The position numbers and the translations under genes are program-made. Under the pieces are notes generated by a model. The model was not told the origin of the DNA and did not search any database. It saw only the letters and a list, made by a program, of their open reading frames with translations. Of a DNA stretch of 64,000 nucleotides, positions 46,717 through 60,364 are shown one piece after another. The stretch covers positions 1-64,000 of the forward strand of contig JAFIGY010000022.1 of NCBI GenBank assembly GCA_017849435.1, in the 5' to 3' direction. Source of the stretch: Chitinophaga niabensis (GTDB lineage Bacteria > Bacteroidota > Bacteroidia > Chitinophagales > Chitinophagaceae). How positions within the stretch are numbered: position 1 is the first letter of the stretch; the number at the start of each line of letters is the position of its first letter.

Positions 46717-48279
46717 GTGAATGTTACATTAGCCGGAATTGATCTTGTTATACTGGCCATTTATATCGTCGCACTGCTGGTGATCGGCTTTTATCTCAAT
46801 ACACGGAACAGGTCGTCAATGAAAGATATTTTCCTCGGTGGAAGATCCCTCAAATGGTGGCAGATCGGTTTCTCCCTTTTTAGCGCCAATGCGGGCCCCA
46901 TGATGCTGGTAGGTTTTGCGAGCATCGGCTTTACACAGGGTGTGGTGGGCAGCAATTTCGAATGGCTCGCCTGGATATTTATCTTTCTGCTGTCGATGGT
47001 GTTCCTGCCGCATTATATTTCCACAAAGGTCTCTACCATGCCGCAGTTCCTCCTGCTGCGCTTTGGGAAACGGTCTTATAATTTCCTGGTGATATACAGC
47101 CTTTTGTCCATTCTCGTGGTATGGCTGGGAAGCGCATTGTATGCAGGCGGACTGATCATTTCCCAGATATTCCGGTCAACGCTGATACAATCGGTATTGA
47201 TCATTGCAATCATCGCATCGAGCTTCACTGCCATCGGCGGATTGAAAGCGGTAGTAAGAACGGGGATATTCCAATCCCTCATCATCATATTTTCTTCCAT
47301 CATCCTCACTTTCCTCGCCCTTCAGAAGATCGGCGGGCTGCATGCATTCATGGAAGCGGTGCCCTTCGGGCACTGGAAATTGTTCCGCCCGGCGAGCGAT
47401 CCGGAATATTCATGGGTGGCGGTGATTGTGGGATATCCCGTTGTGGCGATCTACTATTGGTGTGCAGATCAAACGATTGTGCAGAAGATGCTCGGAGCAA
47501 AAGACGTGCGGGAGGGACAATACGGCGCGATCTTTATTTCCGTACTGAAGATCATTATGCCGCTTATTTTCATTTTTCCCGGCATCATGTGCTATGTACT
47601 GTTCCGGGACGTTGCAAAACCGGATAATGCTTATATCACGCTTGTAAGCCAGATCATGCCGCATGGTTTGCTCGGGTTATGTGTGGCGGCATTGATCGCT
47701 GCGTTGATAGATACCGTGTCATCCGGACTCAATTCATTCAGTACCGTTTTTACGCTGGATGTGCTGGCCCGGATGAAACAAATGGATGAGCCCGCGAAAC
47801 GCAGGGCCGGTCAATGGATCACATTGCTGGCTGCAGGGCTGGCCGTGGGGATTGCTTATCTGTTCTCTTTATCAGGGAAAGGTTTTTTTGAATTGAGTCA
47901 GGGGCTGGTATCCATTCTGGCGCCACCGCTTTCCGTGGTGTTCCTGGCCGGTATTATCTGGAAACGGGTGAATAGTCTGGCTGCGGAGATCGTGCTGTAT
48001 GGCGGCGGCCTGGTATGCCTGATCGTGGGAGCCTGTCATGTGCTGAGTTATCCATCAAAAGAATTCTGGCCACACTTCCTGCTGCTGTCTTTTTATCTTT
48101 TCCTGGCGATGGCGGTGGTGATCGTTGTTGTTACTTTGTGCACGAAGCCCCCGGCCGTTAACCCCCTTCCATCGATCATCGATACCTGGCGCCAGTCAGG
48201 CGGGAGGGGAAGCCGGGTATGGTGGCTGTGGGTGCTGCTCGCAGTGGTAATGTGCGGGATCTATTTAACTTTCAGTTAA
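46717..48279 (+). CDS. Sodium:solute symporter (SSS family)
   Basis: 520 residues with about 13-14 membrane spans. SSS features include DIFLGGRSLKWWQIGFSLFSAN near residue 35-56, SFTAIGGLKAVVRTG, and YYWCADQTIVQKMLGAKD. Members import sugars, myo-inositol or amino acids with Na+. In this operon it probably brings the released monosaccharide into the cytoplasm. Start is GTG 46717; the ATG two bases earlier is out of frame and stops at once. It begins 18 bases after the enolase-type gene. Confidence 0.9.
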   Translation: MNVTLAGIDLVILAIYIVALLVIGFYLNTRNRSSMKDIFLGGRSLKWWQIGFSLFSANAGPMMLVGFASIGFTQGVVGSNFEWLAWIFIFLLSMVFLPHYISTKVSTMPQFLLLRFGKRSYNFLVIYSLLSILVVWLGSALYAGGLIISQIFRSTLIQSVLIIAIIASSFTAIGGLKAVVRTGIFQSLIIIFSSIILTFLALQKIGGLHAFMEAVPFGHWKLFRPASDPEYSWVAVIVGYPVVAIYYWCADQTIVQKMLGAKDVREGQYGAIFISVLKIIMPLIFIFPGIMCYVLFRDVAKPDNAYITLVSQIMPHGLLGLCVAALIAALIDTVSSGLNSFSTVFTLDVLARMKQMDEPAKRRAGQWITLLAAGLAVGIAYLFSLSGKGFFELSQGLVSILAPPLSVVFLAGIIWKRVNSLAAEIVLYGGGLVCLIVGACHVLSYPSKEFWPHFLLLSFYLFLAMAVVIVVVTLCTKPPAVNPLPSIIDTWRQSGGRGSRVWWLWVLLAVVMCGIYLTFS

Positions 48280-48288
48280 AGCCGGTAT

Positions 48289-48705
48289 ATGTATCGATTT
48301 ACCTTTTTTATTGCCTGCTGGCTGTTTGCGGCAGCTTGTAATGCAGGGAGAACAGAGAAGCTGGAGGACAAGGTGTTTGTGGTGAACATCGTTCCGGATG
48401 AAAAGAAGTTGCAGGAGTACCTCGAATATCATCGCCATATCTGGCCGGAGGTGGAAAAGGGTTTTCAAAAAGCCGGATACCGCAAGATCAAATTGCTGCG
48501 CCGGAATCACCTGGTAGTGATGATCGTAACGGTGCCGGAAGGGGCCGATCTCGGAAAGATGGGTAAAGTAGCGGAATCGTATGACAAACGCTGTGCGGAA
48601 TGGAATCAGCTGATGAGTAGCTATCAGCAGGGGATCCCGGGTACGGAACCCGGACAGACATGGACGGAAACGGCGCCTTTTTATATATTCCGGAATGATA
48701 ACTGA
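48289..48705 (+). CDS. Lipoprotein of the L-rhamnose mutarotase family
   Basis: 138 residues. The first 20 form a lipoprotein signal (LFAAACNAG, Cys17). The rest is the RhaM/DUF718 dimeric alpha-beta fold: YLEYHRHIWPEVEKGFQKAGY with His48/His50 and the WPE motif, then IKLLRRNHLVVMIVT. RhaM interconverts anomers of L-rhamnose, with related proteins for L-fucose; RhaM is normally cytosolic, so a lipid-anchored periplasmic form is unusual. It probably equilibrates the sugar before uptake by the symporter 9 bases upstream. Confidence 0.85.
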   Translation: MYRFTFFIACWLFAAACNAGRTEKLEDKVFVVNIVPDEKKLQEYLEYHRHIWPEVEKGFQKAGYRKIKLLRRNHLVVMIVTVPEGADLGKMGKVAESYDKRCAEWNQLMSSYQQGIPGTEPGQTWTETAPFYIFRNDN

Positions 48706-48710
48706 TCAGC

Positions 48711-49583
48711 TTATTTTTCCGGAGCTGTTTCATACTGCTTCATAAATTCCCTGGGCGAAAGCCCCTTCACTTCCTTGAAATGCTTGTTGAAGTTGGAAAT
48801 GTTGTTATAGCCGCTGAGATAACATGCTTCTGTTACGTTATGATTGCCCTCCAGCAGCAATTTAGCGGCATGCCCTATCCGCACTTCCTTGATGAAATCA
48901 ATCAGCGTACGATTGGTGCGCGCCTTGAAGAAGCGACAGAATGCCGCGGGAGACATCGGAAGAATGTCCGCCACCGTTTTCAGGGTGATCTCCTGCTTGA
49001 AATTCGTGAATATGTGATCAAATACTTTGTTGATCTTTTGCGCATCCCCGGAATTGTTAACCGCGTGATAATAGGGCGATGAAAGCACCCGGCAATGTTC
49101 GGATTTCGCCAGCACGTCCAGCAGGCTTAACATCTGCGCTGCCCGCGTCATCCCGGAGGAGAAAAGCATCTGCTGCATGATCATCTTGGCACTGGCGACG
49201 GTGGGGCCGGAAAAGGAAAGCCCTTTCGCCGCTTTGTCAAACAGCACATTCAATTGTTTGGCCTCCGGTGTTTCCAGCAATTGCCTGCCGAGGAAATCAG
49301 GGAAGAAATGGATCACGATCGCCTGCGGCTGGACCATCGGGTCCAGCACAGTGTAATATTGCCAGCAATGCGGAAGATAGCTGCCCAGCAACACCAGCTC
49401 AGGCCCTTCGAAATCTTCAATATGATCCCCAATGAACCTTTTCCCGCTACAATTCTCCAGCAGCGCGATCTCAAAATTGATGTGAGACCTGAGTACGGTG
49501 TACCTCTTTATTTCCTGGAACTCTGATCTGATCGTGAAAGACTGGTCAGGCGGGAAAGTGAAATTTTCATATATGTACTGCAT
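48711..49583 (-). CDS. AraC-family regulator (probable controller of the sugar locus)
   Basis: 290 residues. N-terminal cupin-like ligand domain about 1-165. C-terminal AraC helix-turn-helix pair about 190-285: ITLKTVADILPMSPAAFCRFF, and VTEACYLSGYNNISNFNKHFKEVKGLSPREF (two parts: VTEACYLSGYNNISNFNKHF, KEVKGLSPREF). It is convergent with the mutarotase gene (5 bases between stops) and has TGGTCAAA-type sites upstream. It would sense a sugar or sugar acid and activate the PUL and operon. Confidence 0.9.
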   Translation of the reverse strand: MQYIYENFTFPPDQSFTIRSEFQEIKRYTVLRSHINFEIALLENCSGKRFIGDHIEDFEGPELVLLGSYLPHCWQYYTVLDPMVQPQAIVIHFFPDFLGRQLLETPEAKQLNVLFDKAAKGLSFSGPTVASAKMIMQQMLFSSGMTRAAQMLSLLDVLAKSEHCRVLSSPYYHAVNNSGDAQKINKVFDHIFTNFKQEITLKTVADILPMSPAAFCRFFKARTNRTLIDFIKEVRIGHAAKLLLEGNHNVTEACYLSGYNNISNFNKHFKEVKGLSPREFMKQYETAPEK

Positions 49584-49590
49584 AAACCCC

Positions 49591-49610
49591 CATGCTAAAA
49601 CATGCTAAAA
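49591..49610 (-). repeat. Tandem direct repeat of CATGCTAAAA
   Basis: Two perfect adjacent 10-base copies, 8 bases upstream of the AraC start codon. One turn of DNA per copy, as expected for side-by-side protein binding in the AraC leader. Confidence 0.5.
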
Positions 49611-49633
49611 ATAGTCAAATTCTCCAAAATATC

Positions 49634-49673
49634 GCAGTGTGCAAAAAGGAATTACACTGCAAAAAAGCACTGC
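49634..49673. repeat. Inverted and direct half-sites (GCAGTGT / CACTGCAAA)
   Basis: GCAGTGT at 49634-49640 and ACACTGC at 49654-49660 are inverted copies 13 bases apart. CACTGCAAA recurs directly at 49655 and 49668. Candidate operator cluster between the two divergent genes. Confidence 0.45.
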
Positions 49674-49676
49674 AAA

Positions 49677-49687
49677 TGGTCAAATTT
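49677..49687 (+). promoter_or_regulatory. TGGTCAAA motif in the AraC control region
   Basis: TGGTCAAATTT is identical over 11 bases to the copy at 36155. A near copy, TAGTCAAATT, lies at 49612-49621. They may be autoregulatory AraC sites. Confidence 0.35.
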
Positions 49688-49856
49688 AAAGTAGTGCGGG
49701 CATTATCATTGTAGGAAATTTATGACCGCCTGGCTCTTCTACATGAAAAGTATTCAGTGAGGTATATTCCACATTCAACATAAATGTGTATGCATTAACT
49801 AACATAGCTGTGGTCAGCGTGGAAAAATGTCATATAGACGATTAACGATGAATCAG

Positions 49857-49879
49857 ACGGGCGTTTTGTACGCCCGTTT
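49857..49879 (+). terminator. Terminator-like hairpin 1 in the leader
   Basis: ACGGGCG and CGCCCGT pair over 7 bp with a 7-base loop, extendable by two pairs outside, and are followed by TTCTT. No plus-strand gene ends here. Confidence 0.55.
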
Positions 49880-49907
49880 CTTACAATCATCAGGCGATCT
49901 TTTTCAG

Positions 49908-49937
49908 GCGGAAGCGGGCAGGCGTTTCCGCTTTTTT
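49908..49937 (+). terminator. Terminator-like hairpin 2, just before the next ATG
   Basis: Two overlapping pairings are possible: GCGGAA with TTCCGC (49908-49931), or AAGCGG with CCGCTT (49912-49933). Both run into six T residues ending at 49937, 9 bases before the ATG. The choice of pairing could be regulatory. Confidence 0.5.
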
Positions 49938-49945
49938 AAAACGAT

Positions 49946-52249
49946 ATGATGGCAGGATCAACGCTTTTATGGATACTTCTTCTTTCGGTACACGGATATG
50001 GGCAGACGCAACCGTCCATCCCGCAGGAACTTCACGGAGCGCTCAGCGTGGCCGTTAAGCACTATAACGGTACATCGCTGATATCAGAAGAGAAATTTAA
50101 CGGGAACATTCTTGAAACCGGCAATTGCCGCTGGCAACTGGATTGGAAAGTAACAGCTCCATCGAAGGACGGGATGGAATGTACGCTTACGTGTAAACTG
50201 CAGCGCGGCAGCGCGCCTGCTTCGGCGCTGGCGGTTTCATTCGATTTCGGGAAATGGGAAGCACGCAATTACGTGATGGTGCCGGGGATCGTTTACAACG
50301 GGAACCGCTACCGTACCATCGGGAATGGATATAACCCGCAGTATCCGCGGGATATGTATTACAACCAGGCCGTGCCGGTCACGCTCTCAAACAATCCCCG
50401 ATTGTCAGCAGACAAGGGTGATGCTTCGCTGGTAGAATTGCAGACAAACAATACTGCGGTGCCTGCCATGAGCTTCTTTTCTCCTGCGCTCCGGAAAGGA
50501 TGGATCGTTTTAACGGAGCAACAAACCCGTTGGGGGAATAGCGGATTGACGATACGGGAAAATGCGGATAAAGACAGTTGCTCCTTTGGTATTTCCGCCC
50601 CGGCGGTTCGCCGGCTGGCGGCAGGTTTCGGGGATTTTCATCCCAGCGGGGACCAGGCACCGGACTGGCAGGAAGGAGATGAAGTGTCCATCCGTTTCCG
50701 TATGTATGCATTCGATGCGGATAATATCCCTGCACTGCTGGAAAAATTCATGACCGTGCGGAAAACCGTTACGGGTCCGAATACACCGCGGAACCTTTTG
50801 CCGATGAGTGAGCTTGTGGCAGCAGGTACCCGGATATGCAGCGGTAATTTCTCCGTTCAGCCCGTGGGGAACTACTATCTGCCGGAGAACAGCAAAGATT
50901 TCCAGCTGGGATGGGTGAGCGGGATGATCAATACCTTTCCCATGCTGGCGCTGAACGACAGCACAGAACGCCGGCGGGTATCGGAAGAACTGGATTTTAT
51001 TACGGCAAAGATGCAGGGCGGAAGCGGTTTTTTCTATGGAACGATCACCGCTAACGGGCAGGTCCGTACGGAAAAAGCGCCCCCTGATTTTCCTGCCGTA
51101 CAGGCGCTTGTGCGCAAGAACGGCGATGTATTGTTCTGGCTCATGAAACACCTGATGCTGTTGAAGGCACAAGGATACGGCAGGAGCATCAAACCAGCAT
51201 GGGAGGAAGCTGCAAAACGGCTGGCAGACGCCTTTACGCGCAACTGGAAGAAGTACGGGGAGTTCGGGCAGTATATTGTACCTGAGACCGGGGAGATCGC
51301 TGTATTCAACTCCAGTTCCGGCGCCATTGTTCCTGCCGGTCTGGCGCTCGCGTCCGCCTACTTCAAACATCCCGGCTGGTTGCAAACGGCCACAGCAGCA
51401 GCGGATTTCTATTACACACGGGATATCCTGCAACGTGGTTTTACCGGCGGGGGATGTGGGGATATTTCGCAGGATGCAGATTCCGAATCCTGCTTCGGCT
51501 TCCTTGAATCACTTATGGCTTTATATCAATATACCGGAAAACAGATATGGTTACAGCGTGCAAAAGTACAGGCCGCGCTGTGTGCTACCTGGACGCTGGC
51601 TTACGATCCCGTATTCCCGGCCACCAGCGCCATCGGAAAGCTGGGTGGAAAAATGGCCGGCGCCGTTTGGGCCAGCAGTCAGAATAAACATGCAGCACCA
51701 GGTGTGTGCACTTCTTCTGCCGACTACCTTTTCAAACTGTATCGCGCAACGGGAGATAAGCGATATGCAGCATTGATCAGGGATATACAACATGCGCATG
51801 CCGAAGCAGTGAATATGCCCGGCCACATCACTACGAATTACCTCACCGGCTCCAGTATGGAACGTATCCAGCCGAGTGATGCGGAAGGAAAAGGCAGTAT
51901 CGGGAATTTCATTCATACCCGCAATTCCTGGACGGAAACAGACGGCATCCTGATGGCGATGGAGATCCCGGGTATTTATCTGCAAACGGATACCGACCAG
52001 CTGTATGTTTTCGATCATATAACAGTTACACGGGTTTCCCGTACGATGCTTTCTTTAACCAACAAAACATCGTACAATGCGGAAGTTGCGGTAATGGCGG
52101 AAACCAGCCGTATGGCCACCCGGCCGATGGGATATACGACATTCACAAAATGGCCGAAGGTAAAGGTCAAAGCGGGAGAAACTGTGGTTATGACCGTATC
52201 ATTCCCAGCCGGAAAGGGAGGATCTCCACAGTGCAAAGTGATGAAATAG
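49946..52249 (+). CDS. Large secreted protein of unknown function, probable alpha/alpha-toroid enzyme
   Basis: 767 residues with a signal peptide (about 1-20). An N-terminal beta-rich region (about 25-260) is followed by a helical region about 300-650 with repeated helix pairs and small-residue turns (WVSGMINTFPMLAL, FFYGTITANGQV, GGGCGDISQDADSESCFGFLES, GTRNSW-like HTRNSWTETDGILM), then a C-terminal beta domain. This layout is that of six-hairpin glycosidases or lyases, but I do not recognise a family. Position next to the AraC gene and sugar operon suggests a role in the same glycan pathway. Confidence 0.8.
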   Translation: MMAGSTLLWILLLSVHGYGQTQPSIPQELHGALSVAVKHYNGTSLISEEKFNGNILETGNCRWQLDWKVTAPSKDGMECTLTCKLQRGSAPASALAVSFDFGKWEARNYVMVPGIVYNGNRYRTIGNGYNPQYPRDMYYNQAVPVTLSNNPRLSADKGDASLVELQTNNTAVPAMSFFSPALRKGWIVLTEQQTRWGNSGLTIRENADKDSCSFGISAPAVRRLAAGFGDFHPSGDQAPDWQEGDEVSIRFRMYAFDADNIPALLEKFMTVRKTVTGPNTPRNLLPMSELVAAGTRICSGNFSVQPVGNYYLPENSKDFQLGWVSGMINTFPMLALNDSTERRRVSEELDFITAKMQGGSGFFYGTITANGQVRTEKAPPDFPAVQALVRKNGDVLFWLMKHLMLLKAQGYGRSIKPAWEEAAKRLADAFTRNWKKYGEFGQYIVPETGEIAVFNSSSGAIVPAGLALASAYFKHPGWLQTATAAADFYYTRDILQRGFTGGGCGDISQDADSESCFGFLESLMALYQYTGKQIWLQRAKVQAALCATWTLAYDPVFPATSAIGKLGGKMAGAVWASSQNKHAAPGVCTSSADYLFKLYRATGDKRYAALIRDIQHAHAEAVNMPGHITTNYLTGSSMERIQPSDAEGKGSIGNFIHTRNSWTETDGILMAMEIPGIYLQTDTDQLYVFDHITVTRVSRTMLSLTNKTSYNAEVAVMAETSRMATRPMGYTTFTKWPKVKVKAGETVVMTVSFPAGKGGSPQCKVMK

Positions 52250-52484
52250 TGACGGGGTCTTTGGCAACGATCTCTTTCGCAGCCGCTTCATCTTCCACTT
52301 CCACAACCCCTAACCCCCAGGCCCCCCGGGGATCAAAAACAGGTCCGAATATCAACGCGATCTTCCTGTTGCAAAGGTCCGCCCAGTAAGCAGCGTGCGA
52401 CTGCATAATGGCGGCTTCCTCCGGCGTGATGTCCATCGGGAAAGTAGCGCGGGGAGCGATCAGCCTGAATACGAAATGAGCCAT
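52188..52484 (-). CDS. YciI-like (YCII-related) domain protein
   Basis: 98 residues from ATG 52484: AHFVFRLIAPRATFPMDITPEEAAIM, HAAYWADLCNRKIALIFGPV, WGLGVVEVEDEAAAKEIVAKD (given in parts) and the closing VEILPFRLGMI. These are the ferredoxin-like YciI fold with its His/Asp pair region. Small cytosolic protein of unclear activity. The last 62 bases overlap the 3' end of the convergent large gene; both C-termini look genuine. Codons upstream of 52484 are not conserved-looking. Confidence 0.82.
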   Translation of the reverse strand: MAHFVFRLIAPRATFPMDITPEEAAIMQSHAAYWADLCNRKIALIFGPVFDPRGAWGLGVVEVEDEAAAKEIVAKDPVTISSLCTVEILPFRLGMIRS

Positions 52485-52632
52485 AGCGATGTGGTTGTAA
52501 CTGTTCGGCTGAAAGATAAGAAGTTTTATGGCAATATTTCCCGCTCTCATCCTCAGTGCATAAAACAATGGCACCATACTTGTTCTCCTGTTAACCCAAA
52601 GCCCTATCGGCACTTAAACTGCTTTTCAGCGC

Positions 52633-53037
52633 ATGAAAGAAAAGATCACATGTTTTCTTATTGACGACGACCCGGATGACCATGAGTTCTTTTTGCACGC
52701 CATAGACGAGCTGCAACGGGAAATCGAATGCTTCTTTGCAAGCGATGGGGTAAAGGCGGTCAGAAAATTAAAAGAAGAACAGCATTTCACACCGGATTAT
52801 ATTTTCCTTGACCTGAACATGCCTTTAATGGATGGTAAAGCATGTTTGAGGGAGATCAAAAAGCTGGACAGAGTGAAGGATATTCCCGTGATCATCTGCT
52901 CTACTTCCACCCGCCCGGAAGATAAAAAGGACGCCCTCCGCCTCGGAGCCACTGCTTATCTCGTTAAAGAATCCAGCATCGGGCTGCTGCGCGAAAAACT
53001 TCACGCGATCTTCGAAGGCCGGGGCGCTATACGCTGA
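52633..53037 (+). CDS. Single-domain response regulator (CheY-like)
   Basis: 134 residues, receiver only. Acidic pair in LIDDDPDDHEFF, phospho-Asp in YIFLDLNMPLMDG, Thr/Ser in IICSTSTRPED, Lys in AYLVKESS. No output domain, so it works by protein contact or as a phosphorelay shuttle. The DDDPDDHEFF N-terminus is typical of the RCP-like Bacteroidota group often paired with hybrid kinases. No kinase lies nearby. Confidence 0.92.
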   Translation: MKEKITCFLIDDDPDDHEFFLHAIDELQREIECFFASDGVKAVRKLKEEQHFTPDYIFLDLNMPLMDGKACLREIKKLDRVKDIPVIICSTSTRPEDKKDALRLGATAYLVKESSIGLLREKLHAIFEGRGAIR

Positions 53038-53050
53038 AAGAAAGATGGAG

Positions 53051-53296
53051 CTATTTCGACGCTCGTTTCCGTACAGTAGTACGTTTGAAGCCGGCTTTTT
53101 TTACAGTGTTCCTTTTCTTAACGGTCTTCCTTGGAACCTTTTCGCCTTCTTCCCTCGCTTCCGATAATCCTATGGCTATTGCCTGCCTTGGGTTGGTCAC
53201 TTTCGTGCCGCTGCGGCCGCTTCTTAATTTCCCTTCATGCATTTCATGCATCGCTTTGGCTACTTTTTCAGCGCTTCGCCTTGAATATTTTGCCAT
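53051..53296 (-). CDS. Small basic DUF6496-like protein
   Basis: 81 residues. VTNPRQAIAIGLSEAR is a motif I associate with DUF6496-type proteins. The C-terminal third is almost only Lys, Arg, Thr and Val (VKKRNTVKKAGFKRTTVRKR), like bacterial histone-H1-like tails, so nucleic-acid binding is plausible. Monocistronic; convergent with the response regulator gene, 13 bases apart. Confidence 0.8.
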   Translation of the reverse strand: MAKYSRRSAEKVAKAMHEMHEGKLRSGRSGTKVTNPRQAIAIGLSEAREEGEKVPRKTVKKRNTVKKAGFKRTTVRKRASK

Positions 53297-53560
53297 AACC
53301 AGCGTTTTTCAGGTGTAAGGATCGGGTTTACATCCTATCCAGCCTCAAAATGCAAGCCATATGTACGGCGGGTAAATATGCTGTCAAAAATGATGTGGAT
53401 GGGTAATTTCAGGGATACCTGTAGAATTTCTTCCGCTGCCTTTTATGCATGAATTTTATTTGAGATGTTTAGCCGGCATTGAATATTCTTTCTATATACC
53501 GGAAAATAAATCATGTGTGAGGGTACATGCTGGCATGATTCTTTTATTGTATGTAGTGGA
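53297..53560. other. Intergenic stretch before the TPP riboswitch
   Basis: 264 AT-rich bases with no gene seen on either strand. It must contain the promoter of the riboswitch transcript; only a loose candidate (TTTTATTG near 53543) was noticed. Confidence 0.5.
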
Positions 53561-53650
53561 GTTTCTTAAAAGGGGTGGTTTGGTAAAACAAATCTGAGAA
53601 TACACCCTTACACCTGATCTGGATAATGCCAGCGTAGGAAACAAAGAAAC
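53561..53650 (+). promoter_or_regulatory. TPP (THI-element) riboswitch
   Basis: All conserved parts of the thiamine-pyrophosphate aptamer are present in order. P1: GTTTCTT (53561-53567) with AAGAAAC (53644-53650). P2: GGGTG (53573-53577) with CACCC (53603-53607). P3: TTTG with CAAA around 53579-53592. The pyrimidine-sensing CTGAGA is at 53594-53599. The pyrophosphate-sensing arm begins ACCTGATCTGG near 53612 and closes with AATGCCAGCG and TAGG; CTGG (53619-53622) pairs with CCAG (53629-53632). It is read on the plus strand, 51 bases before the universal stress protein gene. Confidence 0.93.
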
Positions 53651-53654
53651 ATCT

Positions 53655-53680
53655 GGGGCTCCGGTGAAAACCGGAGCCTC
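53655..53680 (+). repeat. Stable hairpin after the TPP aptamer (probable expression platform)
   Basis: GGCTCCGGT (53657-53665) and ACCGGAGCC (53670-53678) pair over 9 bp around a GAAA loop, extendable by two outer pairs. No T-run follows, so it is not a standard terminator. It lies 21 bases before the ATG and may control ribosome access. Confidence 0.65.
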
Positions 53681-53701
53681 TGTACGTTAAATCTGTCTGC
53701 C

Positions 53702-54547
53702 ATGCAATCACTACTTGTTTTAACGGACCTTTCAGGCGCGGCCTTTCATGCGGCAGAATTTGCCTGTTCTTTGTCGAGGCAGATGCATAGCCGCCGCATC
53801 CTGCTTTTTCACGCCTATCACACATTCATTCCTGCCACGGATATTCCTGTTTCCACCGGCCGGGAGAACCGGAAAATAGAGGAAGAGATCAACCGTACGC
53901 TGGAGACCTGGGCAGATCAGTTAAAAGGGCAGGTCAACCCCGGTACGGAGATAGCAGTAAGAACAGAGGATGCTGTACTGGCCACTGTCGTGAACGAGCT
54001 GTGCCGGCAGGAAAAGATCGATATGATTATTATGGGAGTCACCGGGAAGTCCGTGCTGCGGGAAACTTTCATCGGCAGCAAAGCGATCCAGGTGCTGGAT
54101 ATCAGCGAATGCCCGGTATTGCTGGTGCCGCCGGAAACCGCGGTGGCGCCGGTGGAGAATGTCATCTTTGCAACAGACCTGAAGAAAGTATCCGCTACAA
54201 CTCCCTTGCAGGAACTGGAAAGCCTGTTGCACGATATTCCGGCGCATCTGTGGGTACTGAATGTGGAACATCCGGATGAGCGGTATTCGCCGCAGTTACG
54301 GGAAGAGCTGACTGATCTGCATACGCTGCTGCAGCAATATGATCCGGAATACCGGTTTTCCATTCATGAAGATATTGTACAGGGGATTATCACGTTTGCG
54401 GAGGAAAGATCCTGCCCGCTGGTGATTGTGGTGCCCAGGAAGCATGGTTTGTTCCACAGCAGCATTACCCGGAAGCTGGTGCGTCGTTTACACGTTCCCG
54501 TTATCGCTATCCCGGAAAGGAAGTATTCGCCTACGCAGGTCGGGTAA
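53702..54547 (+). CDS. Tandem-domain universal stress protein (UspA family)
   Basis: 281 residues with two Usp folds. The first (about 1-142) has LVLTDLSGAAFHAAEFACSL and the nucleotide-loop-like MGVTGKSVLRETFIGSKAIQVL then CPVLLVPP. The second (about 150-275) is more diverged: VIFATDLKKVS and a C-terminal HVPVIAIPE with HSSITRKLV. Known Usp proteins bind ATP or act in stress survival. Control by a TPP riboswitch would be unexpected for this family. ATG 53702 is the only start that keeps the first strand. Confidence 0.9.
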   Translation: MQSLLVLTDLSGAAFHAAEFACSLSRQMHSRRILLFHAYHTFIPATDIPVSTGRENRKIEEEINRTLETWADQLKGQVNPGTEIAVRTEDAVLATVVNELCRQEKIDMIIMGVTGKSVLRETFIGSKAIQVLDISECPVLLVPPETAVAPVENVIFATDLKKVSATTPLQELESLLHDIPAHLWVLNVEHPDERYSPQLREELTDLHTLLQQYDPEYRFSIHEDIVQGIITFAEERSCPLVIVVPRKHGLFHSSITRKLVRRLHVPVIAIPERKYSPTQVG

Positions 54548-54593
54548 AAAAATTATGATTGATTCGTTCAAAAGCTTATCTTGGCGGTATAAA

Positions 54594-54646
54594 CAGGAAA
54601 TGGTGTCTTCCTGACCCAAACCGCTTCTCAAGCTGATGGCGCCTAC
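54594..54646 (+). promoter_or_regulatory. Fluoride (crcB-type) riboswitch
   Basis: Matches the known crcB aptamer layout. P1: CAGGAA (54594-54599) with TTCCTG (54608-54613). Its loop ATGGTGTC carries GGTGTC (54602-54607), which can form the pseudoknot with GGCGCC (54638-54643). Then AAACC, a short stem GCTT/AAGC (54623-54626, 54630-54633), and the conserved TGATGGCGCCTAC end. A CAACC-GCAA-GGTTG hairpin (54656-54669) follows and may be part of the expression platform. It directly precedes a CLC-F-like gene, the expected target. Confidence 0.92.
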
Positions 54647-54689
54647 AAATGAATGCAACCGCAAGGTTGATAAACTGTTATTTGTAGGT

Positions 54690-55994
54690 ATGAAAAAAAT
54701 CCGTAATCCTTTCGAGCAGATTTTCGTTGCGAAACATTTACTGTACTGGACTTTACTGGCAGTGCCCGTATCACTGGCGGCCGGTTCTCTTGTAGCCTTC
54801 TTTCTCTGGTCTCTGGATGAAGTAACGCGGTTCCGCTGGGAGCACTCGTGGTTATTGTTTCTCCTGCCGGTGGCAGGTGTGGCTGTCCATTTTCTGTATA
54901 AACTATGGGGAAAGAACGCAGAAGCCGGTAATAATCTCATTATGGATGAGATTCATCAACCCGGCGGAGGCGTACCGGCACGAATGGCACCGCTCGTATT
55001 GCTGACCACACTGATCACGCACCTGTTCGGCGGTTCGGCGGGAAGAGAAGGAACGGCGGTGCAGATCGGCGGGAGCATGGCAAGCCTGTTGGCCAAATGG
55101 TTCAAACGCTCCAAAGAAGATCTGCGTATGATGCTGATGATGGGTATTGCAGCCGGATTCGGAGCAGTGTTCGGAACACCGCTCACCGGAGCCATCTTTG
55201 CGTTGGAAGTGCTCGCCATCGGCAGGATCAAATATGACGCGCTCGTCCCTTGCCTGATCGCCAGTGTATTCGCAGATATAGTATGTACAGCCTGGGGGAT
55301 CGAACACACGCGCTATCACATCCTTTTCAGGTCCATGAACGATCACCGGCTGATCGATTTTCTGTTACTGGGAAAAGTGATCCTGGCCGGTGTAGCATTT
55401 GGATTGGCCGGCTGGCTTTTTGCAATGGCTTCACGGCAGATAAAATCCCTCGCCCAAAAAGCCTTCCCGTCCCGCCAATGGCTCATTCCCCTGACCGGTG
55501 GCTGCATCGTGATCCTGCTCACTTTCATCGCCGGAACGGAGGATTACCTCGGCCTCGGCGTTACCGCTCATAATCCCGGCGGTATTTCAATCGTCAGTGC
55601 CTTCCACAGCAACGGCGTTACGCCCTGGAGCTGGCTCTGGAAGCTGATCTTCACAGCAGTCACGCTGGGCATGGGTTTCAAAGGCGGAGAAGTGACGCCG
55701 CTTTTCTTCATCGGAGCGGCGCTGGGTAACACACTTGCCATGATCGCCGGTGCGCCGGTGGATCTGTTTGCGGGACTGGGCTTTATTGCAGTGTTCGCCG
55801 CAGCAACGAATACGCCCATCGCCTGCACACTGATGGGCGTGGAACTCTTCGGCGCCGATCATGTTCTGTATTATGCTGTGGCCTGCTTTACCGCGTATTA
55901 CTTTAGCGGGCATACAGGGATCTATCATGCGCAGCGCGTTGCCGTGCGGAAGCATGATGTGAAAGCAGAGAAGGAAAGCCGGAAGATTGATTAG
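54690..55994 (+). CDS. CLC-family antiporter, probable fluoride/proton exchanger (CLC-F)
   Basis: 434 residues with about ten membrane helices. [17 protein letters not shown] (gating Glu120 in GREGT rather than GREGP) and NNLIMDEIH in place of the chloride-selective GSGIP loop are features I associate with the fluoride-exporting CLC-F branch. [20 protein letters not shown] and [16 protein letters not shown] are the other conserved blocks. The fluoride riboswitch upstream supports this substrate. An ATG at 54636 lies inside the aptamer, so ATG 54690 is taken as the true start. Confidence 0.9.
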
Positions 55995-56028
55995 GAGGAG
56001 GCTTGAATTAAACAAAACTGAAAATCAC

Positions 56029-56418
56029 TCACCCCGCGGGTTCAAACAGTTCGATCAGGTTACCGGAGGGGTCCATCAGCAGTACCTGTTTGCCGCCTGC
56101 TCCGGTGATAATATCATTGCGGAATACGGCGCCTTCTTTCTTCAACCGGTTAACCATGTCTTCAAGGTCTTTCACCACAATGCGGATGCGGTTCCATCCG
56201 CCGGGTGCCGGAAGTGTACCATCCGGCATAGCCTGACCGGCCGCACCTGCGCCGGGCTGATTCATGAAAATACGGAGATTGCCTCTTTGTATATCTGCAT
56301 AAGCCGGTCCTGCCTGCATGTTGATGGTAAACCCGAGGAACTTCGTATAAAAATCCACGGCTATTTCTGCATCATGCACAATATATCTTACCCCCACAAT
56401 CGATTCATTTGTTTCCAT
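56029..56418 (-). CDS. VOC superfamily protein
   Basis: 129 residues with two VOC modules: VGVRYIVHDAEIAVDFYTKFLGF and WNRIRIVVKDLEDMVNRLKKEGA (in parts), ending LLMDPSGNLIELFEPAG with a metal-ligand-like Glu. Generic glyoxalase/dioxygenase fold of unknown substrate. Divergent from the ECF41 sigma gene and close to its oxidoreductase partners, so it could belong to the same response. Confidence 0.87.
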   Translation of the reverse strand: METNESIVGVRYIVHDAEIAVDFYTKFLGFTINMQAGPAYADIQRGNLRIFMNQPGAGAAGQAMPDGTLPAPGGWNRIRIVVKDLEDMVNRLKKEGAVFRNDIITGAGGKQVLLMDPSGNLIELFEPAG

Positions 56419-56463
56419 AGCTGCAAAGGTATGTCTGCTAAATTAAGTGTATTTTGCCACTTT

Positions 56464-57300
56464 ATGGAAACGCTCCGGCCTTTATTAACGACTTACGCTT
56501 ACAACATCACAGGTTCCCTTGAGGAAGCAAAGGATATCGTACAGGATGCTTACCTGGCTTATGTACAGGCGGATACAGCGGCAGTGCGGGACCCGCGTGC
56601 ATATCTCATCCGTACGGTGATCAACTTTTCCATCAATCATAAAAAGAAACAACAACAACGTATCAGCGCTTATACCGGCGAATGGCTGCCGGAGCCGGTT
56701 TCGACGGATAATGCGGAGGCAGCCCTCATCCGCAAAGATGTATTGTCTTATTCCCTGATGGTATTGCTGGAACAACTGAATGCCCGCCAGCGCGCAGTGT
56801 TCATCCTGAAAGAAGCATTTGATTATGATCATGCGGAGATCGCGGAAGTGATAGGGATCACAGAAGCTTATTCAAGGCAGGTATTGCGCCGCGCAAAGAA
56901 ACAGTTGAATGAAACGGGAGAGGCGACGGATAGAATGGTAGATGCAGCGCAGCTGGATAAATATCTGGAACTGATTCGTACAGGAGATATGCAACGGCTG
57001 GAGAAGATGTTGTGTGCGGATGTAGCTTCAACCTCCGATGGTGGCGGCAAAGTGGCAGCAGCGCTGAAACCTGTCTATGGCTGGCAGGATGTTGCGGCGT
57101 TTATTACGGGTATCTATCGGAAGTTTTACGGCGATGCCCTTATTGAAAAAGGCATGATCAATCATCAGCCTGCATTGTTCTATTATCATGATGGCAGGAT
57201 CGTTACCTGCCAGATCTTTTCCTTCCTGAACGGGCGTATCCATCGCATATTCTTTATGCGCGATCCGCAAAAACTCTCGGCATTGCAGAAAAATCCCTGA
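56464..57300 (+). CDS. ECF41-type (SigJ-like) RNA polymerase sigma factor
   Basis: 278 residues. Sigma region 2 about 5-65 (GSLEEAKDIVQDAYL), region 4 about 92-150 (LNARQRAVFILKEAFDYDHAEIAEV, in two parts: LNARQRAVFILKEAF, DYDHAEIAEV). A SnoaL-like C-terminal domain follows from about 165. Three ECF41 hallmarks are visible: WLPEP (74-78) in the linker, DGGGK (192-196), and an NPDKL-like DPQKL (267-271) near the end. Such factors need no separate anti-sigma; the C-terminal domain modulates activity. Start at 56464 follows a TATTTTG element; ATG 56431 is an alternative. Confidence 0.9.
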   Translation: METLRPLLTTYAYNITGSLEEAKDIVQDAYLAYVQADTAAVRDPRAYLIRTVINFSINHKKKQQQRISAYTGEWLPEPVSTDNAEAALIRKDVLSYSLMVLLEQLNARQRAVFILKEAFDYDHAEIAEVIGITEAYSRQVLRRAKKQLNETGEATDRMVDAAQLDKYLELIRTGDMQRLEKMLCADVASTSDGGGKVAAALKPVYGWQDVAAFITGIYRKFYGDALIEKGMINHQPALFYYHDGRIVTCQIFSFLNGRIHRIFFMRDPQKLSALQKNP

Positions 57301-57304
57301 AAAC

Positions 57305-57331
57305 TGTCACGTTTCCATCGCTTTGTTTGTC
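57305..57331 (+). promoter_or_regulatory. ECF41-dependent promoter
   Basis: TGTCACG (57305-57311), 16 bases, then TGTC (57328-57331). This differs by one base in each box from the published ECF41 consensus TGTCACA / CGTC. The ATG of the decarboxylase-family gene is 26 bases on. Confidence 0.7.
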
Positions 57332-57357
57332 TTTATACAGAAACAAATTTTAGAACG

Positions 57358-57822
57358 ATGGAAAGAATCAGTCACAACGAATTACCCGAAGGCTTTTTAG
57401 GCGTATTGAAACATGTACAGGCGTATATCGATCGTTCCGGTCTGGATAAACAGCTGGTGGAATTGATGTGCATGCGGGTATCGCAGTTGAACAGCTGTGC
57501 GCGTTGTTTGGATATGCATTATAAAGATGCGCTCCTTGTAGGAGAAACGCCACTTCGCCTCATTTCCGTATCCGCCTGGCGTGAAACACCCTATTATTCC
57601 GCAAAAGAACGGGCAGTACTGGCCTTTGCGGAAATGCTTACCAAAATGCCGGATGATACAGGCAGCGAGCATATTCATGACGAACTGCGGGAACATTTCA
57701 CCACGCAGGAAATTGCATATCTGACGCTGGCGGTGGCACAGATTAACACCTGGAACCGGGTGGTAAGGTCTTTCGGCTCCACGCCGGGGAATTATGTAGC
57801 GGGCTCCCGGAGAGCAGAATAA
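57358..57822 (+). CDS. Carboxymuconolactone decarboxylase/AhpD-family protein
   Basis: 154 residues, all-helical. The catalytic CxxC-xxx-H is SCARCLDMH with Cys47, Cys50 and His54, as in AhpD-type peroxidase-linked proteins. It fits the group that is the standard neighbour and target of ECF41 sigma factors. It probably handles peroxide or a reactive organic compound in the cytosol. An ECF41-type promoter lies directly upstream. Confidence 0.9.
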   Translation: MERISHNELPEGFLGVLKHVQAYIDRSGLDKQLVELMCMRVSQLNSCARCLDMHYKDALLVGETPLRLISVSAWRETPYYSAKERAVLAFAEMLTKMPDDTGSEHIHDELREHFTTQEIAYLTLAVAQINTWNRVVRSFGSTPGNYVAGSRRAE

Positions 57823-57839
57823 TCAGCGCCCTTTCCCTG

Positions 57840-58781
57840 TCAGGATCGTGTAGTCGTTGGCGTTTGCTGCACGGTAGCGATCACGCCTTCTTCATACGTG
57901 GTGGGCCTGAATTGAAACCGACGTTCGAACCTGCTGCTGTCGAAAATATAGTCGCGGTCGTACTGATAGAACATTTCCGCCAGCTCCTTCATGATCGGCA
58001 CAAATACGCCGATGGTGGAGGCCAGCCATTGCGGCATCACGGAATAACGTGGTGCTGTTTTCATGATCCGGGCGAACAGCTGTATCCATTCTTCTCCCGT
58101 CAATACGGCGGGATGTGTAGGCAGATGCCATACCTGGTTGAAGGCGTCAGGCGTGTTACCCAGCATGGCCGTAGCTTTTGCGGCATCCGGGGTATAGGTG
58201 AAGGAATGTTTTTTATGTGCGTCGGCAAACCAGTTGGCTTTTTTGCCTTTGAGGAAATTCTTATACACCAGTTCGTTCATCACGCTCGTTTGACCTGTAC
58301 CCGGACCATAAAAATCCGCGGAACGTGCAATGAGCGCCGTGATGTTTCCCTGTTCCACCTCCTGCATCAGCATTTGCGCGATCTGCGCTCTTACCTTTCC
58401 TTTTTTGGTGGAGGGATTGACGGGAGTGGTTTCGGTCATTGGGGAGAGGGCATTCCTGTCGTACATGTAAATATTGTCAAAGAAAACGAGCCTGCTGCCA
58501 TGAATGCGGCAGGCTTCGATCACATTCCGCATTAAAGCCGGCCACTGACTGCGCCATATCCTGATATTGTAAGGGAATCCGATGGTGAGATACACTACAT
58601 CCGAGCCTTCCACGGCTTGCAGCACCTGTTCACGGTCCGTAAGATCCGCCGGGAAAAGTTCATCTCCCGGATTTTCCTTTTCCGGATTGCGGCTGACGAG
58701 ACGGATCTGATCTGTATACGCTGCCAGTTCTCTGGCCAGGAATTTGCCGATCGCACCGCCGGCACCGAGGATGGTTTGCAT
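57840..58781 (-). CDS. NAD(P)-binding epimerase-like protein
   Basis: 313 residues. The N-terminus QTILGAGGAIGKFLARELA is a Rossmann GxGGxxG nucleotide loop. DVVYLTIGFPYN, LVFFDNIYMYD and RSADFYGPGTGQ resemble extended short-chain dehydrogenases of the NAD-dependent epimerase type, but the YxxxK pair is not clear. ECF41 genes are often linked to such 'COE' (carboxymuconolactone decarboxylase, oxidoreductase, epimerase) genes. It is convergent with the decarboxylase gene. Confidence 0.85.
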   Translation of the reverse strand: MQTILGAGGAIGKFLARELAAYTDQIRLVSRNPEKENPGDELFPADLTDREQVLQAVEGSDVVYLTIGFPYNIRIWRSQWPALMRNVIEACRIHGSRLVFFDNIYMYDRNALSPMTETTPVNPSTKKGKVRAQIAQMLMQEVEQGNITALIARSADFYGPGTGQTSVMNELVYKNFLKGKKANWFADAHKKHSFTYTPDAAKATAMLGNTPDAFNQVWHLPTHPAVLTGEEWIQLFARIMKTAPRYSVMPQWLASTIGVFVPIMKELAEMFYQYDRDYIFDSSRFERRFQFRPTTYEEGVIATVQQTPTTTRS

Positions 58782-58913
58782 AAGATATTTTTTGCCCGCT
58801 CAAATTACAGAAAATGCGTTACAATGAGATATTTTCATGAGCGTTGTTTCGGTAGCTAACGACCGTTATCTTTCTAAAAATCAGTAACTTCCGCTCGTCA
58901 TCAAAGATCTTAA

Positions 58914-59597
58914 ATGAAACGGGAGTTGCTCCTTACGGCAGATGGCTCACATACTATGGCGGTTCCCGCCATGGACGTGACCTATCACAGCAGGTACGGC
59001 GCTGTGCAGGAAAGCATGCATGTTTTTATTCATGCCGGTCTGCATAACGTCACCGCGCTTCCGGAAGGAGAGACGTTGCATGTGCTGGAGATGGGCTTCG
59101 GCACGGGACTGAACGCCCTGCTTACGTTCCGCGAAACCTTGAAGAACGGAAGAAGTGTATACTACCGGACGGTTGAACTGTTCCCGCTCACGGAACAGGA
59201 AGCATTGATGCTGAATTACGTGGAGCAACTTGGGGATCCTTCTTTGGGAGAAGTGTTCGCGGGAATGCATGCGGCGCCCTGGGGCGAGGATGTACAACTA
59301 ACCCCGGCATTCACTCTGCACAAATCGCAGGCAAACTTCCCGGATCTTCAGATGGACAACGTATTCCATCTTGTCTACTACGATGCCTTCGCCCCCGGCG
59401 CACAACCGGAATTATGGGAACAGCCGGTATTCGAAAAGCTGTTCCGTTCATTGCATCCCGGTGGTACGCTTGTCACTTATTGTAGCAAGGGCAATGTACG
59501 GAGAAACATGACCGCCGCGGGATTCCGGGTGGAGAAACTCCCTGGCCCCCGGGGTAAAAGAGAAATGCTGCGAGCTGTTAAACCATCTATGTCCTGA
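58914..59597 (+). CDS. mnmD: tRNA (5-methylaminomethyl-2-thiouridine) methyltransferase, MnmD-like
   Basis: 227 residues. SAM-binding block LHVLEMGFGTGLNALLTF and the MnmC-N/MnmD signature YYDAFAPGAQPELWEQPVF and LVTYCSKGNVRR are present. The FAD-dependent oxidoreductase half of MnmC is missing, so it is the stand-alone MnmD form that makes the last methylation of wobble uridine. It is followed after 2 bases by a second methyltransferase gene. Confidence 0.9.
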   Translation: MKRELLLTADGSHTMAVPAMDVTYHSRYGAVQESMHVFIHAGLHNVTALPEGETLHVLEMGFGTGLNALLTFRETLKNGRSVYYRTVELFPLTEQEALMLNYVEQLGDPSLGEVFAGMHAAPWGEDVQLTPAFTLHKSQANFPDLQMDNVFHLVYYDAFAPGAQPELWEQPVFEKLFRSLHPGGTLVTYCSKGNVRRNMTAAGFRVEKLPGPRGKREMLRAVKPSMS

Positions 59598-59599
59598 AT

Positions 59600-60364
59600 A
59601 TGCCCTGGAACCCGGAAACATATAACAAGTTTAAGAAAGAAAGGAACCTTCCGTTCTATGACCTGCTGGCGCTGATTGCCGTGAAGCCCCGCCTGACCGT
59701 GCTGGACCTCGGCTGCGGCACCGGGGAACTGACGCGTATGCTGGCGGATGCCCTGCCTGACGCATCGGTTACCGGCATTGATGCCTCCGCGGAAATGCTA
59801 CGGGAATCCGTGCAGTTTGAACGCGCCGGTCTGCGTTTTTATCTGCAGTCCATCGAAGAAACCCTACAATCGGATGAACAGTACGATCTCATATTCTCCA
59901 ACGCCGCTATCCAGTGGGTGAACGATCATCCTGTGCTGCTGCCGCAGATTATCGCCAGGATCAGGGCGGGCGGACAATTAGCCATCCAGTTACCCTCCAA
60001 TCACCATAGCTTCACGCATACCGGCATCCGGGAACTTGCGGCCCGGGAACCTTATGTAACGGCATTGAACGGGTGGAACAGGGAGTCGCCGGTGTTACCG
60101 CCGGAAACGTATGCAGAGATCCTGTTTAACAACGGGGGAGGCAATATCCGTGTATTCGAAAAAGTGTATCCTCATGTATTGCCTGACGCCGCGGCATTGG
60201 TAGAATGGACTTCCGGCACGGCCCTTGTGCCTTATATGGAAAGACTGCCGGATCATCTGCAACAACAGTTCAGGCTGGAGTACGCGAAGATGATTGCAGC
60301 GCAAACGCGCAGTGTGCCGGTCTTTTATCCGTTTAAACGGACGTTGATGGCCGCGGAGTTTTAA
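59600..60364 (+). CDS. Class I SAM methyltransferase, trans-aconitate 2-methyltransferase-like
   Basis: 254 residues. PWNPETYNKFKKERNLPFYDLLALI is the Tam lead-in, followed by VLDLGCGTGELTRMLAD (motif I), GIDASAEML, and IFSNAAIQWVNDH. Tam methylates trans-aconitate; in Bacteroidota the true substrate is untested. Two bases after mnmD, so probably co-transcribed. Convergent with the second efflux adaptor gene. Confidence 0.88.
   Translation: MPWNPETYNKFKKERNLPFYDLLALIAVKPRLTVLDLGCGTGELTRMLADALPDASVTGIDASAEMLRESVQFERAGLRFYLQSIEETLQSDEQYDLIFSNAAIQWVNDHPVLLPQIIARIRAGGQLAIQLPSNHHSFTHTGIRELAAREPYVTALNGWNRESPVLPPETYAEILFNNGGGNIRVFEKVYPHVLPDAAALVEWTSGTALVPYMERLPDHLQQQFRLEYAKMIAAQTRSVPVFYPFKRTLMAAEF

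Follow-up and report, generated by a model that had tools for sequence, protein, structure and literature searches.

The TPP aptamer that lies ahead of a universal stress protein (Usp) gene in the window, the whole 64,000-nucleotide stretch of DNA analysed here, is best explained as one copy of a free-standing, family-wide TPP-aptamer RNA gene, which would have a promoter and a terminator of its own and may act in trans. This explanation as a whole is given a probability of about 0.7, and its first part, the existence of a free-standing TPP-aptamer RNA gene as such, appears very probable. The comparison across the genus and the family establishes, at the level of sequence, the promoter-like block, the aptamer and the terminator of this unit, as well as their joint conservation and their independence from any one downstream gene.

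Riboswitches are commonly regarded as leaders of the genes under their control. If the explanation is true, an aptamer for a metabolite can itself be what a gene encodes, and the state of a central coenzyme might be tied to stress-type genes. For the purposes of annotation, it would also caution against assigning the gene that happens to come next (here Usp) to thiamine metabolism.

The Aptamer and Its Surroundings in the Window

The covariance-model scan of the whole window (cmscan) recovered the aptamer at full length as RF00059, at 56.5 bits against a gathering cut-off of 54.3 (E 2.1e-8), which confirms the preliminary description, where a TPP aptamer in the plus-strand sense had been read from the letters and the span 53561-54547 had been correctly delimited. 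The order proposed there, in which the aptamer is followed by a GAAA hairpin and then by the Usp gene, holds as well, with 44 nt between the model match and the Usp ATG and 21 nt between the hairpin and this start codon (Table 1). The Usp reading frame matches PF00582 at 77.6 bits, above the curated cut-off of 24. It had also been stated that no thiamine gene is nearby, and a Pfam scan of 15 proteins encoded from 46717 to 60361 recognised none, a 767-aa open reading frame at 49946-52249 being without any Pfam match. A genome-wide search returned three RF00059 TPP aptamers in the window's genome, all of them above the cut-off; of the other two, one precedes a thiS-like start (C16) and one a receptor-like gene (C4), these genes being named by eye.

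Table 1. Coordinates of the features of the window copy, in positions of the window.
Feature	Position	Strand	Evidence
Promoter-like block TGGCATGATTCTTT, -24-like element	53531..53544	+	matches [TC]GGCA[CT] of genus copies
Putative transcription start, about 25 nt past GG, just 5' of helix P1	53557..53560	+	spacing to YAGA consensus
TPP aptamer, CUGAGA element, helices P2-P5	53561..53657	+	RF00059 56.5 bits; covariation over 51 copies
GC-rich hairpin GGGGCTCCGGT-GAAA-ACCGGAGCCTC, former intrinsic terminator	53655..53680	+	
Decayed T-tract TGTACGTTA, 4 T of 9	53681..53689	+	
Universal stress protein (Usp), 281 aa	53702..54547	+	PF00582, 1.9e-21

Judged by their letters, the block, the aptamer and the hairpin of the window copy are those of the free-standing class described below, and it is the loss of the T-tract that makes this copy exceptional. 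The stem-loop GGGCTCCGGTGAAAACCGGAGCC is letter-identical in a relative (L079 of genome G020), in which it is followed by TTTTTTGTG, with six T. In the equilibrium fold, the window hairpin folds apart from the aptamer with a pair probability of 0.99, and the Usp start codon is left unmasked by the aptamer in the predicted structure. Given the loss of the terminator T-tract, read-through into Usp is probable in the window genome, and some of the transcripts probably extend into this gene. Since the 21 nt that separate the hairpin from the ATG leave hardly any room for a second promoter, Usp is probably transcribed through the RNA.

Other features flank the locus. Right behind Usp, a fluoride riboswitch (RF01734, 52.3 bits) occupies 54587-54652 (+), and directly 3' of it stands a CLC-type channel gene (PF00654) at 54690-55994 (+), whose start codon at 54690 was chosen by us, the two forming an ordinary fluoride-export arrangement. 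Upstream of the aptamer lies a DUF6496 gene (MAKYS...) at 53051-53296 (-), and the free-standing copy of another genus (L240, genome G168) is likewise preceded by a protein that begins similarly.

Copies of the Aptamer in the Genus

In 79 genomes of the genus, RF00059 yielded 218 matches, with at least one in every genome. Besides the two standard-looking ones, 60 further copies were taken with approximately 4 kb per side, and the genomic context was viewed for 85 different copies of the 218, drawn from these 60, the window copy and 31 loci from the searches. Fifty of the 60 were classed, together with the window copy, as free-standing; these 51 copies come from 49 genomes, and at least 49 of the 79 genus genomes, as a lower bound, have a TPP aptamer with no recognised thiamine gene under its lead. 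The other ten of the 60 are leaders, each followed immediately by a gene in the same direction: five belong, by eye, to thiM-thiE-thiD-tenA-like operons, one to a thiS-like start and two to receptor-like genes, and the remaining two (L108 and L120) lie before an acyl-CoA-dehydrogenase-like gene and have no terminator.

The last two represent another TPP leader type without a thiamine gene. The product at L120 matches the acyl-CoA dehydrogenase C-terminal domain by Pfam, and both loci adjoin what looks by eye like a sigma/anti-sigma pair.

Three of the free-standing copies look decayed, with scores of 33.6-34.2 bits, namely L102 and L116, in which the terminator is missing, and L123, in which it is present; two of the 49 genomes hold decayed copies only (L102 and L116). 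In these two, a second partial aptamer-like stretch comes after the decayed aptamer, near 4001-4170 and in the aptamer-forward orientation, in a manner that resembles a tandem duplication. Two free-standing units per genome are also found in some cases, such as G118, G138, G696 (approximately 5 kb apart), G070 and G021, and the free-standing unit therefore duplicates or moves.

Terminator and Fold

A strong hairpin with at least five T in nine bases lies directly past the aptamer in 48 of the 51 free-standing copies, the exceptions being the window copy, L102 and L116, a count which is not blind, as the classes were set after the sequences had been viewed, and which becomes 48 of 53 when L108 and L120 are included. 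No terminator follows the aptamer at any of 29 other TPP loci of the genus, nor in any of the ten leader copies, five of which are also among the 29, and the block is found at one of the 29 loci (L045). By eye, 28 of the 29 loci stand ahead of thiS-, thiM- or receptor-like starts, L037 being ambiguous. Given that the 29 other genus leaders have no terminator and a single block among them, the free-standing units are not simply broken TPP leaders.

In equilibrium folds computed without ligand, the pair probability of the terminator reaches at least 0.9 in 43 of the 51 copies, and a classic antiterminator, considered as a candidate, was rejected on these grounds. No expression platform was found either, the hairpin being independent of the aptamer in the fold of the window copy. 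In all seven of the folds drawn out, the 5' end is paired with a stretch that lies a short way ahead of the terminator.

The helices covary over the 51 rows, in which 107 cells have changed on both sides and are still paired, versus 38.5 in shuffles, these counts being inflated by the relatedness of the sequences. Both-sided changes occur in 13 of the 21 pairs, including all seven terminator pairs, P4 is paired in 100% and P5 in 99.5% of the cells, and compensatory changes are spread across the genus in P3, P4, P5 and the terminator. Further pair types, a weak measure, amount to 31 versus 28.3, a value reached in 38 of 500 shuffles. The TPP core residues are kept in the genus alignment, in which no conserved stretch that could serve as an antisense seed was found beyond those of the aptamer, of P1 and of the terminator, and because of this lack of conserved sequence a single fixed antisense target is unlikely.

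The Promoter-Like Block

Upstream of the aptamer, the motif [TC]GGCA[CT] is present in every one of the 40 genus copies that remain when a group of 11 copies placed at the 3' end of DUF4142 genes is set aside, and its GG lies 28-44 nt before the aptamer match in these 40. In 53 of 53 rows, of which 40 are from the genus and 13 from other genera (the latter chosen partly for GGCA, not for the T), a T stands ten bases past the first G, and a YAGA consensus appears at approximately 25 bases in the same rows.

The block corresponds to the TGGCAC of the -24 element of sigma-54 promoters, and its core and spacing resemble the sigma-54 consensus as quoted in a passage of PMC12316311. The window's genome has one copy of rpoN. 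On the other hand, the -12 position is poorly kept, with T in 29 and G in 11 of the 53 rows at the 12th base after the first G and C in 22 and T in 15 at the 13th, and the canonical sigma-54 pattern matches no more than four times in this genome versus once in the control. The block thus resembles the -24 half of a sigma-54 promoter, and the sigma-54 label is a weak one because the -12 GC is poorly kept.

A broad regulon based on the block in the window's genome was also considered and rejected, given that a looser block pattern gave eight matches versus seven for the reversed control, mostly within genes. Upstream of the block, CTGTAGC occurs in 10 of 40 copies versus 0 of 160 control stretches, in sequences that are related and at positions that vary, and its possible role as an enhancer site is a lead only.

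Neighbouring Genes and the Relation to Usp

The next open reading frame of at least 100 aa is convergent in 27 and co-directional in 24 of the 51 free-standing copies, versus ten of ten co-directional among the leaders in the same test, and a split of 27 versus 24 is as expected of a unit without a partner gene. The co-directional next gene lies within 150 nt in 13 of the 24 copies. Usp is a neighbour in 17 of the 51, being co-directional in three (the window copy, G033 and G061), convergent in five and divergent in nine, and the other 34 copies are accompanied by endonuclease V, DUF763 or MgtC genes (11), lie behind or beside DUF4142 genes (14), or have other genes next to them (9).

The remaining co-directional neighbours, scanned by Pfam with one representative per gene group, include a HAD hydrolase, a beta-lactamase-family protein, a GxGYxYP glycoside hydrolase, a MauE protein, a sodium/hydrogen exchanger (two matches) and a family-43 glycosyl hydrolase, and four have no Pfam match. 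No recognised thiamine gene is present among these co-directional representatives, four of them being without a Pfam match, nor between the aptamer and Usp in G033 and G061, which argues against the suggestion in the preliminary description that a thiamine gene had been lost from the spot. The element is not the 5' leader of a thiamine gene in its present setting, since Usp is not a recognised thiamine gene and 27 of the 51 next genes are convergent. The Usp proteins linked to the TPP unit do not form one clade in a tree with other sampled Usp proteins; a search for related loci with the Usp protein returned distant Usp genes only, and a search of plasmids returned short aptamer matches only.

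It had been proposed that the aptamer directly controls Usp, and that the same pair should be sought in relatives. The pair does recur in the same order in G033 and G061, in both of which the T-tract is kept, and 34 of the 51 copies have neighbours other than Usp. As a general explanation direct control is not supported, given that 14 of the 17 Usp-linked copies are not placed co-directionally ahead of Usp. It is partly alive for the window, in which the decayed T-tract makes read-through into Usp likely.

A cis riboswitch by which the state of TPP decides the expression of Usp in the window genome, G033 and G061 may be envisaged. The gene starts 45 nt past the end of the aptamer in the window and 49 nt in G061 (129 nt in G033), the two shorter distances leaving little room for a separate promoter, and the loss of the T-tract allows window transcripts to reach Usp. 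A possible pairing of the J3/2 region with the 5' arm of the terminator, seen by eye in G033 and G061, is in favour of this reading, but it is not seen in the window copy, and the terminator wins in the ligand-free equilibrium folds of all three (0.99 in the window, 1.00 in G033 and 0.98 in G061). As the aptamer does not cover the Usp start codon in the predicted fold either, and most Usp-linked copies have another arrangement, this reading is considered unlikely. We conclude from the arrangements compared that Usp is one neighbour among several, found in three orientations, and that the element is not a Usp riboswitch.

The convergent neighbours of 27 copies also invite the idea of a cis-antisense device, in which read-through past the terminator would yield an RNA antisense to the convergent gene, in line with the antisense SAM-I riboswitch described in a passage of PMC2258182. 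However, the neighbours vary among lineages and orientations, and the terminators look constitutive in the equilibrium folds, which makes such a device highly improbable.

Distribution in the Family

Beyond the genus, RF00059 gave 150 matches in 98 genomes of the family (97 genera), and 90 of these were scored, consisting of 60 regions that favour multi-copy genomes and 30 loci from the search. In a fixed scan of the 90 other-genus aptamers, 13 have both the block and the terminator, three the terminator only, two the block only and 72 neither (Fisher p 3.3e-11). The 13 complete copies represent 11 genera; L214, which is cut by a contig end, has neither the block nor the terminator.

A strict pattern of block plus aptamer was found in 26 of 394 family genomes and in 20 of 101 genera, and its reversed control gave none among the matches listed. 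The terminator is present in 18 of the 28 strict-pattern matches, and the other ten consist of G118, which has a terminator by the fixed scan, the window copy, two with a weak hairpin and six without. Taken together, the fixed scan and the strict pattern place the block and the terminator jointly in 22 genera, the window's genus included.

No pair of block and terminator was found outside the family in a pattern search of 395 genomes of the class, a search of low sensitivity that matched, besides the window, three genomes outside the family, all three without a terminator. Tried on ten genus genomes, the strict pattern matched three of the five known block units (G000, G026 and G083) and missed G033 and G064. 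Because the pattern misses some true units, the restriction of the unit to the family is likely rather than demonstrated.

In three genomes of other genera (L164, L183 and L221), a TPP aptamer with a terminator and without the block precedes one kind of gene (WFFNREHTDTYEQWYEGRYKRAE in L183). Its product in L183 is of the methyltransferase family by Pfam, the genes of the other two start alike by eye, and this kind of gene is possibly an unrecognised one under TPP control.

The distribution also bears on whether the units are orphaned relics, i.e., functionless leftovers of the leaders of deleted thiamine genes. Recent orphaning is named as a possibility in a passage of PMC2258182, and the decayed appearance of L102, L116 and L123 would fit such an origin, but the compensatory changes in P3, P4, P5 and the terminator across the genus, and the joint retention of block and terminator in 22 genera, leave this explanation with the slightest of chances.

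The DUF4142 Group and the Proposed Mode of Action

In 11 copies without the block (L070, L074, L081, L090, L099, L103, L104, L114, L124, L125 and L127), a DUF4142 gene ends 3-14 nt ahead of the aptamer match, as counted from its stop codon (nine assigned by gene call and two by sequence), and the aptamer therefore lies within the 3' end of the DUF4142 gene, before its terminator. A TGGCAYAATCTTTTC-like block stands at the start of these DUF4142 genes, in nine of nine by script and in two more by position, and is present in 11 of 12 members of the whole DUF4142 protein cluster. The block also stands, in nine of nine cases, at a small lipoprotein-like gene found near the endonuclease V group, and Usp genes are absent from the block matches at gene starts in these loci. 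Among genes of at least 80 aa in the same loci, the block is found at 34 of 459, versus 2 of 459 for the reversed motif, a comparison which overstates independence because the loci are related.

These matches are a hint that the RNA may share its control with stress-type genes. The idea that vitamin status is wired to a stress response, raised in the preliminary description, survives in this other form, in which the DUF4142 genes with a 3' aptamer share the promoter-like block.

The free-standing RNA gene would operate as follows. A promoter whose TGGCAY block resembles the sigma-54 -24 half would drive transcription of a complete TPP aptamer closed by the P1 helix, which would begin close to the 5' terminus of the transcript. 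A small RNA of approximately 130-150 nt, whose fold or stability may follow TPP, would then be ended by an intrinsic terminator that is predicted to form with or without bound TPP. As a TPP-gated regulator, this RNA would work in trans among a set of stress-type genes, some of which share its promoter block.

Trans action as a TPP-gated regulator is tentatively regarded as the most likely mode, and with a single fixed antisense target being unlikely, a protein partner, lineage-specific targets or TPP buffering are the candidates for how the RNA works. As a buffer or decoy, the aptamer would be produced in large amounts under stress, soak up TPP and so de-repress the two true thiamine riboswitches. 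The two other TPP leaders of the genome are possible beneficiaries, little apart from the aptamer, P1, the promoter block and the terminator is conserved, and in the printed folds both ends of the RNA lie close to paired regions that close it. Against this, the number of RNA molecules would need to approach the TPP pool, which is costly, and buffering is quite unlikely to be what the RNA does.

In its most specific form, the proposal of a free-standing RNA gene reads that a TPP-binding small RNA with a promoter of alternative-sigma type, found family-wide, might report coenzyme status in trans to a stress or stationary-phase programme, one branch being a bacterial 3'-end TPP aptamer in a DUF4142 gene with the same block; this form is possible and still somewhat doubtful.

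Comparison with Known Systems

The unit agrees with the TPP riboswitch (THI element) RF00059 in its full-length match, in CUGAGA and P2-P5, and in the covariation of P3-P5. It differs from these riboswitches in that the free-standing group at large has no gene-linked expression platform and carries its own terminator and a promoter-like block.

Among RNAs of related kind, SreA of Listeria is a SAM riboswitch RNA ended by a terminator, which exists as a small RNA and also acts in trans, as described in a passage of PMC8079631. The TPP unit shares with it an aptamer RNA ended by a terminator, but SreA originates as a genuine cis riboswitch that leads an operon, whereas the free-standing TPP units have no cis gene in common and would act in trans by inference. 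The same source describes Rli55 and AspocR, in which vitamin B12 riboswitches control non-coding RNAs in Listeria. Here too, a ligand of vitamin type is sensed by an RNA that leads no protein gene, on the TPP side as judged from sequence, and the difference is that the RNA under the control of the riboswitches of Rli55 and AspocR is longer and includes an antisense or protein-binding portion, while the TPP unit consists of the aptamer and then the terminator only.

Barrick and Breaker (2007; PMC2258182, in one of its passages) reported a handful of good aptamers that are not upstream of related genes, for which trans-acting antisense RNAs or recent orphaning were suggested. Unlike these orphans, the TPP class is defined by a common block and terminator, which occur jointly in 22 genera. 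The portions of the open-licence literature searched, including those of PMC2258182, PMC8079631, PMC10043782 and PMC12316311, contained no description of a comparable free-standing TPP RNA or of a TPP-Usp pair. As described in these passages, neither SreA, Rli55 and AspocR nor the orphans of 2007 are a gene-less aptamer RNA that has been retained over many genera.
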